Shown here piece after piece: positions 28 to 46,841 of a stretch of 49,023 bases of DNA (its first letter is position 1; each line of letters starts with the position of its first letter). Below the pieces are notes generated by a model that saw nothing but the letters and a program-made list of their open reading frames with translations, ran no database searches and was not told the origin of the DNA. The DNA is from a virus: the IMG/VR virus record IMGVR_UViG_3300005295_000015, positions 1 to 49,023 of that record, one strand, 5' to 3'. The position numbers and the translations under genes were made by a program.

Positions 28-45
28 TGTCCTCCGGAGTGGACA
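28..45. promoter_or_regulatory. Inverted repeat TGTCC-N8-GGACA, copy 1
   Basis: An 18-bp perfect dyad (5-bp arms, 8-bp spacer) in non-coding DNA. The spacer here contains TCCGGA, itself palindromic. The same arms, spacer length and following C occur at 148-165 and 46824-46841. The layout is typical of a dimeric DNA-binding protein's operator. No protein has been assigned to it. Confidence 0.6.
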
Positions 46-82
46 CCTTAGGGGGTATGCCCGAATAGTGTAGGTGTGTTTG

Positions 83-128
83 TTAGTCTATATATCTTAT
101 ATATATATATATAAAAGAGATAGACTAA
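83..128. repeat. AT-rich palindrome with alternating AT core
   Basis: TTAGTCTAT at 83-91 is the exact reverse complement of ATAGACTAA at 120-128. The loop is an almost pure TA run. Such an element could extrude as a cruciform or melt easily. It lies between two copies of the TGTCC-N8-GGACA repeat and just upstream of the first promoter. It could be a DNA-unwinding element of an origin, a transcription terminator or an AT-rich regulatory spacer; the sequence does not decide. Confidence 0.55.
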
Positions 129-147
129 AACCCCTCCCTAACACCCC

Positions 148-165
148 TGTCCTCAAAAGGGGACA
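148..165. promoter_or_regulatory. Inverted repeat TGTCC-N8-GGACA, copy 2
   Basis: Exact arms with an 8-bp spacer, ending two bases before the -35 hexamer of the promoter at 167-195. A protein bound here would contact or block RNA polymerase at the first rightward promoter. The position would suit either an activator or a repressor. Confidence 0.65.
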
Positions 166-166
166 C

Positions 167-195
167 TTGACAGGGGGCAGAGGGTGTGCTACACT
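167..195 (+). promoter_or_regulatory. Sigma70-like promoter for the rightward gene chain
   Basis: TTGACA (167-172) and TACACT (190-195) are separated by 17 bases. Initiation would fall near 202, leaving a very short leader with a purine-rich Shine-Dalgarno tract before the ATG at 215. An inverted repeat abuts the -35 box. Inferred from consensus match only. Confidence 0.65.
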
Positions 196-214
196 CCGCT
201 GGGGGAGGGGGAGT

Positions 215-718
215 ATGGACCCACTGCAATCGCTTAAGTCGTTGACATACAAGGGGTTAGGTATCGATGATGGGCTTGGGAACCCAGAGGAATTTCTGCG
301 GGACACTCCCAGAACCCTCCCGGAACCCGGCCGGAACCTAGACCGGGCCTCCCATGCCGATATCATAGGTGCCATTGATAGACTAAAACTTGAATGTAAG
401 AATAGGAGAACTAACGCTAAGGAAGTTTCTAGATACGCTTGGCGCTGCACTTTCCTATTCAAGCATACAGGGCGGATATGCAATACAATCAATGCTCTGC
501 AAAAAAGCTCGAAGACAGTTGTTAGGAAAACATGCTCTAAGTGCGGAAGTCCCAGAACAAATCCTCATACAATCCTAAGAGAACTGTTCGAGCTTAGTCG
601 AGAAGAAATAGTCAAGGCCTTCATAGAGGAAGATGGTCTAACCCTAGACGAAGCTAATATTCGCTTCGATGAAATGGCCGATGAACAGGCTAGTATAGGA
701 GAATCACTAAATGGATAA
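215..718 (+). CDS. Hypothetical protein, first gene of the rightward chain
   Basis: I do not recognise this 167-residue protein. The ATG at 215 is preferred over the upstream ATG at 74, because it follows a strong purine-rich ribosome-binding tract and lies downstream of the promoter at 167-195. The longer reading would translate the AT palindrome and the operator. A CxxC pair sits in the middle (CSKCG), but no second pair follows, so a complete zinc site is not evident. The C-terminal third is acidic and helix-prone. The end overlaps the next gene by 8 bases, so the two are probably translationally coupled. As the first gene behind a strong promoter it may be an early host-interaction protein, but this is inference. 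Confidence 0.75.
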   Translation: MDPLQSLKSLTYKGLGIDDGLGNPEEFLRDTPRTLPEPGRNLDRASHADIIGAIDRLKLECKNRRTNAKEVSRYAWRCTFLFKHTGRICNTINALQKSSKTVVRKTCSKCGSPRTNPHTILRELFELSREEIVKAFIEEDGLTLDEANIRFDEMADEQASIGESLNG

Positions 719-44604: not shown

Positions 44605-46002
44605 CTATCCTCCAGAAGCGAGTCCACCAATGCCAACCATGCGTAGTCCCCCTTCTTGAGTAAATTGTGCTGCTCCAGGAGTGGTATACGCTACAATTCC
44701 ATTGATTAGAGTACCTGGGAAACCTGCATTTCTCAAATCTTTACCACCACCATTTTTATTATTCAAGCTGAAGTCTCCTCCAGCTGCATTAATAAATGGT
44801 GTCTGGGTAAGAGTGAAGAAATTAATACTGAAGCAGAATGCACCAGTTCCCAGGCTGACGTTAGATGAGCCTGCTGCTCCATTGTTGAAGCCAGCGCAGT
44901 TCATCAAATTGATTGCTCTATTATTCGATGAAGCGTTGAATCCAAATGCTCCAGAAGCTGTATTACCTTCAGCAACAGAATTCACACAACAGTTTCCACC
45001 ATTAGCTAAGCGGAAACCATCACGTCCATTAGCGTAGGAGATACAATTGATGAAATAGATACCAAAGGCAGCAGAGGAGAATCCGTCTGAGGAAGCTCCT
45101 GTATTATTATAGGAAATACAGTTAACACAAGCTCCTGTAGTCTGAGAGTTAGCATGAGAAAATCCGGTAACAGTATTCCCTTCTGCTACACAGGCATATG
45201 CAATTGAAACAGATTGAGCAAAGGCAGGTTGAGTTGAACAGCCGGTGGCCCAGCAATTAACTGCTATTGAACCGTTTAGAAGGTTAATACCAGTGTTGGT
45301 ACAGTTGAGGGCTTTAACTTTGAAAGCGTAAGTGTAGTTACAGGATAGTCCTCTAGAGCTCGTTCGACTATTCCCGTTGATAACTAAGTTCCGGATGCAA
45401 TTGTATTGGGAAGCACTGGAGAAGTTTACTAGAGTGAAGGAGGTGATTACTCCATCCGCGATAATAACTGGAGCAGTTCCTAAGTCTCCTCTAGAAGTCT
45501 GATATCCTTCAAAGAGGCAATCATTACCAGTAGAGAAGCATCCGTTAGTAACGTTAGTGCTGGTTGATGTAACTGTATAAGTTCCAGCTTTAATGTAGAT
45601 TTTATTCCCTGCTTGAACTCCTCTGCCTGCTTCTCCCGGACTAGCGAGACAACCACCGATGTTCATGGTCATCCCGGTGCTAGATGCTACTGATGCATCA
45701 AGGGTAACTGTAGTAGCATTAGTAAAGGCAGTAACCTGTCTCCTAACGATAGCGATACCACCAGTTCCACCCTGAAGGTAGATGATGTTTCCTACTATTG
45801 CGCTCGTGAAGGAAGCTGTAGCGGAAGTAAGAGTAGTCGAACCGTTTGAGACTGCATCAGTTGTTGAGATATTATTCCCGGCAGTATTCTTAGCATCTTG
45901 CTGGGAATAGTCTGTTCCGCTCGCTCCAGTGACGAAAGCTCCGCCATTGGTATCATTGCCAGTAGTGCGGACTTCCCAGACTGTATCAGCTGAGAGACTC
46001 AT
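44605..46002 (-). CDS. Parallel beta-helix protein, tailspike-like
   Basis: A 465-residue protein with repeated Asn- and Ser-rich rungs: FEGYQTSRGDLGTAPVIIADG, NCIRNLVINGNSRTSSRGLSCNYTYAFKVKALNCTNTGINLLNG, ACVNCISYNNTGASSDGFSSAAFGIYFINCISYANGRDGFRL. These are typical of right-handed beta-helix tailspikes or polysaccharide-binding proteins. The N-terminus (DTVWEVRTTGNDTNGGAFV) is the motif often found at the start of such phage proteins. It lies next to the small terminase gene, away from the other fibres. The stop side overlaps nothing; the start overlaps the TerS-like gene by four bases. Confidence 0.7.
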   Translation of the reverse strand: MSLSADTVWEVRTTGNDTNGGAFVTGASGTDYSQQDAKNTAGNNISTTDAVSNGSTTLTSATASFTSAIVGNIIYLQGGTGGIAIVRRQVTAFTNATTVTLDASVASSTGMTMNIGGCLASPGEAGRGVQAGNKIYIKAGTYTVTSTSTNVTNGCFSTGNDCLFEGYQTSRGDLGTAPVIIADGVITSFTLVNFSSASQYNCIRNLVINGNSRTSSRGLSCNYTYAFKVKALNCTNTGINLLNGSIAVNCWATGCSTQPAFAQSVSIAYACVAEGNTVTGFSHANSQTTGACVNCISYNNTGASSDGFSSAAFGIYFINCISYANGRDGFRLANGGNCCVNSVAEGNTASGAFGFNASSNNRAINLMNCAGFNNGAAGSSNVSLGTGAFCFSINFFTLTQTPFINAAGGDFSLNNKNGGGKDLRNAGFPGTLINGIVAYTTPGAAQFTQEGGLRMVGIGGLASGG

Positions 46003-46568
46003 CCTTCGGCCTCTTGAACATCAACCACTTCAAAAGTATCTTCTCCCCTAACTCTAGGAGAATAGACGATGAACTTCGGGCCGTGCTCGGGAGAATTAAA
46101 TCCGCTCTTAGTCTTTTCTAGAACGTTCGCTAGCTTAAGAGCAGCTCCTGGGAGATCTTTCTGATCTAAGCACTCAGGATTGAAATGATCGAGGGATCTT
46201 AATAGTTTCTCAGTCGAGACTTCAGCGATTCTAGTCTGAGCAGTTTTAATAACTTCTCTGACTTCATGATTAACCGTTCTAGTGTCAATGTTAGGAGTAT
46301 TAAATCCTCTAGAGATCGAGGAGACTGAGGGTCCCGATGTTCCATGTAGCTTAGCAACTTCAGATTGAGAAAGATTAGGATTCAGGGAATCTAGGGCTAT
46401 CAGTTCCTTCTCTAATTGAGATTTATTAGGAACACCTTCTTTCCTTCCTGGTTTACCTTCGTTAATGAATTCAGGAGGAAGGACGATCTCTCCATCCTCA
46501 ACATTAGGCATAGGAAGCTTCGGAATAGGAATTTCCTTAACTTCATCATCCGAAATAATGATTTTCAT
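45999..46568 (-). CDS. terS: Probable terminase small subunit
   Basis: A 189-residue protein, first gene of the leftward operon. A helix-turn-helix region (NPNLSQSEVAKLHGTSGPSVSSISRGF, about 62-90) lies after a basic linker GKPGRKEGVPNKSQLEKEL, then a long helical portion REVIKTAQTRIAEVSTEKLLRSLDHF for oligomerisation, and an end VRGEDTFEVVDVQEAEG that could contact the large subunit. HTH plus oligomerisation helices is the normal layout. The large subunit is 3.7 kb downstream, an unusual separation, so the assignment is provisional. The ATG follows AGGATAGGAT. Confidence 0.6.
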   Translation of the reverse strand: MKIIISDDEVKEIPIPKLPMPNVEDGEIVLPPEFINEGKPGRKEGVPNKSQLEKELIALDSLNPNLSQSEVAKLHGTSGPSVSSISRGFNTPNIDTRTVNHEVREVIKTAQTRIAEVSTEKLLRSLDHFNPECLDQKDLPGAALKLANVLEKTKSGFNSPEHGPKFIVYSPRVRGEDTFEVVDVQEAEG

Positions 46569-46634
46569 ATCCTATCCTATTTAGATTAATAGATTAACTG
46601 AATGCTCAGATTGATGGAAAACAGGCGCATTCGG

Positions 46635-46663
46635 AGGGTAACACAGGATGGTATAGAAGTCAA
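46635..46663 (-). promoter_or_regulatory. Sigma70-like promoter for the leftward structural operon
   Basis: Read on the minus strand, TTGACT (46658-46663) and TACCCT (46635-46640) are 17 bases apart, about 65 bases upstream of the small-terminase ATG. The -10 match is moderate. It would drive the long leftward gene series. Consensus-based call. Confidence 0.5.
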
Positions 46664-46734
46664 GCCTAGTCTAGGGATGAGTCTGACGGATCTGCGGCCT
46701 TCCTGGGCGGTTGGGCTGGGGTCCGATGAGTTGC

Positions 46735-46763
46735 TTGACAAAACCCTTGCAATGGATTACAAT
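46735..46763 (+). promoter_or_regulatory. Sigma70-like promoter, rightward
   Basis: TTGACA (46735-46740), a 17-base spacer and TACAAT (46758-46763). This is close to consensus and the strongest of the three candidates at the divergent junction. Start near 46770. The CCCTTGC repeats and an inverted repeat at 46824 lie around and downstream, so it could be regulated. It would feed the zinc-knuckle and HNH genes. Confidence 0.7.
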
Positions 46764-46785
46764 GCCCTTGCTGCCCTTGCAATGG
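46744..46785. repeat. CCCTTGC direct repeats across the promoter
   Basis: CCCTTGCAATGG occurs at 46744-46755 and again at 46774-46785 (30 bases apart). A third CCCTTGC is at 46765-46771. The first copy lies within the spacer of the rightward promoter and the others just past the -10. Such spacing on one face suggests binding sites for a regulator, perhaps overlapping RNA polymerase. Confidence 0.5.
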
Positions 46786-46823
46786 GTTCCTCGGGGCTCC
46801 AATTGACCCGGTTGCCCGACCAC

Positions 46824-46841
46824 TGTCCACAAAATAGGACA
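46824..46841. promoter_or_regulatory. Inverted repeat TGTCC-N8-GGACA, copy 3
   Basis: Exact arms and spacer length as at 28-45 and 148-165, each followed by C. Here it lies in the untranslated leader, about 55 bases downstream of the predicted start of the 46735 promoter and 43 bases before the zinc-knuckle ATG. Binding there could block elongation or another promoter. Confidence 0.65.

Follow-up and report, generated by a model that had tools for sequence, protein, structure and literature searches.

Operator-like dyads in the early control zone of an uncultured soil phage and its relatives

A large group of uncultured tailed phages shares an inverted repeat of about 20 bp, located in the early control zone, where it probably binds a regulator. 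We have analysed it in a 49,023 nt stretch of DNA from a soil phage (IMG/VR record IMGVR_UViG_3300005295_000015), referred to here as the window, which carries three copies of the dyad TGTCC-N8-GGACA. The evidence of sequence is that the sites are genuine and non-coding, that they are conserved and that they go with early promoters; the dyads are a feature of the group rather than a peculiarity of the window. In our best reading they would be operators of the early control zone to which a protein binds, and they may form part of an origin of replication. We give an even chance to the fuller proposal that they are the binding sites of a dimeric protein governing this zone, for which a small helix–turn–helix (HTH) protein encoded at 11685–11933 is the best named binder.

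An exact scan bore out the three copies reported in a first-pass annotation of this DNA. They are located on the plus strand at 28–45 (dyad 1, of which the 20-mer is GTGTCCTCCGGAGTGGACAC at 27–46), 148–165 (dyad 2) and 46824–46841 (dyad 3), and the window holds no further exact copy. The expected number is 0.03, the mean of 100 shuffles that keep dinucleotide composition, and 0/100 shuffles reached three; with up to two mismatches allowed the count falls to the level of chance (16, against a shuffle mean of 14.3). The three copies have the same arms, equal spacer lengths and a C directly after the second arm, while the spacers differ, all as previously described. Mechanically called open reading frames (ORFs) at 74–718 and 46602–47030 overlap two of the dyads, but the likely starts are the in-frame ATGs at 215 and 46884, downstream of promoters, and when these are taken all three dyads are non-coding. 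Dyad 2 lies a single base before the TTGACA of a predicted promoter (TTGACA-17-TACACT, 167–195, plus strand, 10 of 12 consensus matches) for the operon that includes the SNF2 and replication genes. Dyad 3 starts 61 bases past the -10 box of a second predicted promoter (TTGACA-17-TACAAT, 46735–46763, plus strand, 11 of 12 matches) and before the likely start at 46884, and is therefore in the leader. The earlier placing of one copy against a -35 box and of another in a leader is thus correct.

The leader position of dyad 3 would also suit an RNA hairpin serving as a terminator, attenuator or processing site. Dyad 2, however, is upstream of the -35 box and therefore not transcribed from that promoter, none of the three dyads is listed by our scans as a terminator-like site (a G+C-rich hairpin with a T run behind it), and Rfam matches the window at a tRNA only. 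Across 25 distinct sites, an A-A or T-T combination at positions 6 and 13 (11 sites) outnumbers a complementary one (five), but the difference is not significant (p 0.21), nor is the oriented half-site preference that it might have indicated. We consider the RNA explanation to be very improbable.

Although the dyads are placed near opposite ends of the window, they belong to one control zone, as had been proposed. A 17.8 kb relative contig, IMGVR_UViG_3300005471_000166 (G002; G and L numbers are our handles for records, loci and contigs), carries together homologues of the large terminase (96% identity to the window), the SNF2 gene (89%) and the protein at 48153 (87%). Since these are genes of both window ends, the three dyads fall within a single zone of approximately 2.4 kb. 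The ends of the window share just 14 bases, an exact terminal repeat (CCCCCCTACTCCCA, 1–14 and 49010–49023), which may represent either a cohesive end or a remnant of assembly.

The arms and their spacing are conserved in related phages. From 72 loci fetched by the large terminase and SNF2, five were dropped by hand and 20 as near-duplicates, leaving 47 (584 kb); contig L004, which carries the window's own dyad 3 and a large terminase identical to that of the window, was left in this set. The TGTCC arm at spacing 8 occurs nine times in the 47 loci (once as dyad 3 in L004), against 0–3 times at each of the other spacings between 0 and 20. At spacing 8 an arm occurs 0.92 times on average, and the only arms as frequent are AT-rich (TATAT 20, ATATA 16, AATGA 9). 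When whole records were scanned for 46 hand-picked loci out of 68 in the terminase/SNF2 set, exact sites were found in ten, one of them L004. The exact pattern is too strict a definition of the site, as G003 and G022 carry forms that an exact search misses; the consensus, of about 20 bp, is GTGTCC-W-C-N4-G-W-GGACAC.

A 20-base matrix was built on 21 distinct sites from these earlier records and applied to a later set of 19 records, drawn by capsid gene and length from 80 capsid loci that were themselves the best of 334 (24 records were at least 29.5 kb long, five of which were already in hand). The matrix identified 18 sites scoring at least 16, against one in reversed sequence, and 13 against none at 18 or more. 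Removal of G111, which has 28% of its 31-mers in common with the earlier G089, and of G107, which is contained in G106, left 17 records without a near-copy amongst the earlier ones; these gave 16 sites against none at the lower threshold and 12 against none at the higher. An SNF2 gene is present in 17/19 of the later records, in which 15 sites are within 8 kb upstream of SNF2 (130.6 kb) and one is outside (601.6 kb). Over all records with an SNF2 gene, 62 sites with a score of at least 13.5 fall in the 8 kb upstream of that gene and three elsewhere; these counts include the sites used to build the matrix and take the two sites of G017 twice on account of its overlapping ends. Records G019 and G026 were read to base 20,000 only. 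Many further copies inside coding genes, which the first-pass annotation would have taken as evidence against a regulon, are therefore not what the relatives display.

Might the dyads be palindromes arisen by chance? Across IMG/VR the 20-base form matches 55 stretches, at least four of them in this group (G002, G007, G047 and G075), and this is close to our rough chance estimate, for which the size of the collection in bases was not given. The pattern read backwards also occurs in 4/46, 3/46 and 2/19 records, compared with 10, 7 and 6 forwards. Set against these figures are the excess of exact copies in the window, the 16 sites to none in the 17 later records and the positions beside promoters, and we regard a chance origin as extremely improbable.

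The association with promoters was quantified. A promoter matching at 10 of 12 positions, directed toward the early operon and with its -35 box starting -1 to 16 bases past the dyad, accompanies 8/58 sites where 0.39 would be expected; at 9 of 12 positions the figures are 13/58 and 1.49, with G000/G002 and G003/G022 being close pairs. In G002 the arms of dyad 2 are identical to those in the window and 6/8 spacer letters are changed; both promoter boxes are kept, as, largely, is the AT palindrome described below. Dyad 1 is replaced in G002 by other sequence, and the copy corresponding to dyad 3, present in contig L004, is absent; besides the dyad 2 counterpart G002 has one stretch with a score of at least 4, far off at 13739. 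Copy number therefore turns over quickly. In G003 and G022 there is a degenerate counterpart of dyad 1, so that the pair is kept in degenerate form. On the suggestion that a regulon would be contradicted by the absence of the dyad from equivalent places in close relatives, the evidence is accordingly divided: the arms of dyad 2 persist in G002, while the dyads at 28 and 46824 are gone.

Between dyads 1 and 2 is an AT-rich palindrome (83–128) with 23-base arms that are 87% complementary. The same composite module, with dyads 90–120 bp apart on either side of a tract that is 93–100% A+T over 30 bases, is present in eight records, the window included (G000, G003, G017, G022, G085, G090, G094 and G106), although the second dyad is weak in G003, G094 and G106 (scores of 14.7, 11.2 and 11.4, respectively). 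In total, 23/58 sites are no more than 100 bases from such a tract, compared with a random rate of 6%, a count in which the two sites of G017 are taken twice and G003/G022 and G089/G111 are close pairs. The module adjoins an operon encoding a helicase, a polymerase and a DUF3987 protein, and it could represent a replication origin in which initiator sites surround an unwinding tract, the adjoining promoter provides priming and the leader copy is secondary. We think this unlikely. At least one site is near an AT tract in 16/33 site-bearing records, but in the other 17/33 no site is within 100 bases of one, and the initiator itself is postulated. The GC skew turns near the zone, yet it also follows gene direction and so decides nothing about an origin.

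For the dyads as operators, a protein that might occupy them has to be considered. Three candidates had been put forward from the window. Two can be set aside as too rare to serve the whole group, since the records compared contain a single weak relative (G031) of the protein at 6049 and four relatives (G002, G003, G022 and G099) of that at 48153/48222. The third, an HTH protein of 82 amino acids (11685–11933, plus strand), is the best named candidate. The window copy has no match in Pfam or PHROGs, and the HTH profile, searched against PDB sequences, returned one match, a mitochondrial ribosomal protein with an E value of 1.2. The structure predicted from 42 sequences is of high confidence (predicted local distance difference test, pLDDT, of 93.5; predicted template modelling score, pTM, of 0.82). 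In a second structural comparison the top six rows are the DNA-binding domains of Noc, KorB, ParB–parS, SopB, ParB and Spo0J, with Z values of 6.2–5.6 and alignments of 65–75 of the 82 residues; in the four rows that follow, 46–54 residues are aligned.

The domain neighbourhood points in the same direction. The ParB_N CTPase domain was detected in 1/11 records and not in the window; in the record concerned, G042, an HTH of the 11685 type is directly behind ParB_N in a ParB_N–HTH–N6_N4_Mtase protein. This fusion of 455 amino acids (L272:15764-17131, minus strand) occupies the slot of the stand-alone HTH elsewhere. Proteins joining a ParB fold to methylases of this kind have been reported in phages (PMC12704722). 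Where both neighbours are annotated the HTH gene is found between the AAA_24 and PolA genes, with the exception of a second copy in G047; the 62-kb record of this phage (L236–L239) has HTH genes at 16693–16944 and 60926–61378. On the strength of this fold and neighbourhood, and not of a Pfam match, the 11685 protein can best be likened to a stand-alone DNA-binding domain of the ParB/KorB type.

A number of observations weigh against the proposed binder and its simple mode of action. Foldseek with the 11685 model found nothing at an E value of 0.001, a Z value near 6 is middling according to the structure tool's own note, and Pfam HTH_ParB (PF17762) was detected in 0/11 records at an E value of 1, with control genomes positive in 14/14 cases. 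In 31 near-complete records of at least 39 kb with an SNF2 gene, the HTH is present in 21/24 site-bearing genomes and in 6/7 that are site-free. Early-promoter sites also occur in three genomes that lack the HTH, G031, G097 and G106, where the distance to the -35 box is -1, 12 and 2 bases, respectively; a six-frame search of the three with filters off found no hidden copy, and each of these sites departs once from the exact pattern. Combinations of HTH and sites are scattered over the PolA tree. Nor is there a single fixed geometry, since the distance from dyad to -35 box ranges from -1 to 16 bases. A strict coupling of HTH and sites had looked perfect in the first records, and a reverse search starting from the HTH (46 of 51 loci, four being already in hand and one in the same record as another) had found exact sites in 7/46 further records and in 5/6 of those longer than 40 kb; the capsid-selected sample broke the coupling, and that claim is withdrawn. 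The candidate is widespread and confidently modelled, but its presence does not track the sites, and we rate the likelihood that it is the binder of the dyads as less than even. The wider claim of an operator regulon is affected in the same respect; what holds is that the dyads are operator-like, non-coding, within the control zone and adjoining promoters.

None of 97 phage gene families tracks the sites convincingly, the best being a cold-shock protein family (19/24 against 2/7, p 0.02 before correction). A zinc-ribbon family encoded by the first gene had been found in 10/12 site-bearing records, against 1/12, amongst the first 24 large records, and was then ruled out when a profile search found no member in G000, G002, G003, G022 or G040. 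Since sites are kept at early promoters in three genomes without the HTH and no family tracks them, a core phage protein or a host factor may be responsible. In the latter case the phages would have borrowed the operator of a host bacterial regulator to time the early promoter. We judge this rather unlikely: the factor would need strong conservation to serve phages so divergent, and the bacterial and archaeal collection holds relatives of the capsid gene at two loci, one binned with an archaeon and the other with a Bacteroidetes bacterium, which between them point to no single host.

We propose that a dimeric DNA-binding protein would occupy the dyads of about 20 bp in the early control zone. 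Two occupied dyads would flank the AT-rich palindrome just upstream of the replication-operon promoter, and the third would lie in the leader. The bound protein would most likely bridge the paired sites across the AT-rich tract, and the bridged complex would restrain the early promoter. If the 11685 protein is the binder, the location of its gene within the replication operon would create a negative feedback loop. What the sequence itself establishes is the sites, where they lie and how they are conserved, together with a confident 11685 model; binding, dimerisation, bridging, repression and the identity of the binder are inferences that go beyond it. A more ambitious version, which we consider doubtful, is that this phage group has taken over a stand-alone ParB/KorB-type domain, one that lacks the CTPase and dimerisation domains, as both early regulator and origin-binding protein, the site pairs clamping the AT palindrome beside the replication promoter.

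Comparison with known systems places these proposals in context. The operator of KorB is shorter than, and unlike, the dyad. The HTH of plasmid RK2 KorB in complex with its operator (PDB 1r71) resembles 11685 with a Z value of 6.2 over 74 of the 82 residues, but 11685 has no room for a C-terminal dimerisation domain and the window has yielded no ParB_N. ParB-type systems use palindromic sites of 16–20 bp, and the sequence of the dyad differs from parS. Although ParB/Spo0J–parS, Noc and SopB share the domain type seen in the best structural rows of 11685, the dyads differ from those systems in adjoining a replication-operon promoter. Temperate-phage repressors act at several dyad copies in a control zone that separates the early from the late gene block, an arrangement to which that of the window is similar; the structural rows of 11685 are, however, led by ParB-type domains and not by Cro or CI types, and no integrase turned up in the subset of window proteins compared with Pfam or PHROGs. 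At the lambda ori iterons and the T7 primary origin, initiator sites or promoters are beside an AT-rich tract. The same is true of the window dyads and promoter, but here the tract has a site on either side, the two being about 100 bp apart, and the initiator is a postulated one. The abstract of a study of KorB describes its long-range gene silencing (PMC11790492).

The genes around the control zone provide landmarks. On the plus strand the early operon begins with a gene at 215–718 (likely ATG at 215), which has homologues in G002, G003 and G022, and continues with an SNF2-type helicase with an SprT-like domain (1997–3997) and a family A DNA polymerase with an N-terminal uracil-DNA-glycosylase domain (12351–14849). 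A tRNA-Leu (taa) gene at 10445–10527 overlaps the start of the 10451 ORF. Behind dyad 3 there is a likely zinc-finger-like ORF of 48 amino acids (46884–47030, plus strand). The opposite edge of the zone is marked by a conserved protein with a possible HTH (45999–46568, minus strand; Pfam HTH_37 at an E value of 0.11 only), which we take to be small-terminase-like. Contig ends cluster in the zone, with 10/31 records of at least 39 kb ending within 2.5 kb upstream of SNF2 (G012, G040, G101, G087, G105, G000, G017, G103, G085 and G090); this could reflect physical ends of the genome, or assemblies that break at poly-T tracts and hairpins. Short iteron-like repeats of about 10–11 bp with a CGGAA core, all found by eye, occur at 300–345 and 48905–48975 of the window and beside the sites of G028, G029 and G033, most strongly as GTGTCGGAA arrays in G033.

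Searches of phage-record DNA with window positions 44000–49023 (distant) and 30000–49023 (near) gave no match, and neither the capsid protein nor the HTH protein (G024 copy as query) had a match in 50,697 phage records; the polymerase had 160 matches in phage records, all with less than 60% identity. No paper on the motif was evident from titles or abstract openings in the literature searched, a body that excludes most subscription journals, although some of the papers listed contain its letters.

With the dyads, gene control in this large, uncultured phage group can be approached at the level of sequence. The 20-bp operator, the composite module and the small family of candidate DNA-binding proteins can be checked with synthetic DNA, and neither phage nor host is needed. 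If the doubtful version of our proposal, a recruited ParB/KorB-type domain, were true, one protein would couple the shut-off of early transcription to the start of DNA replication.

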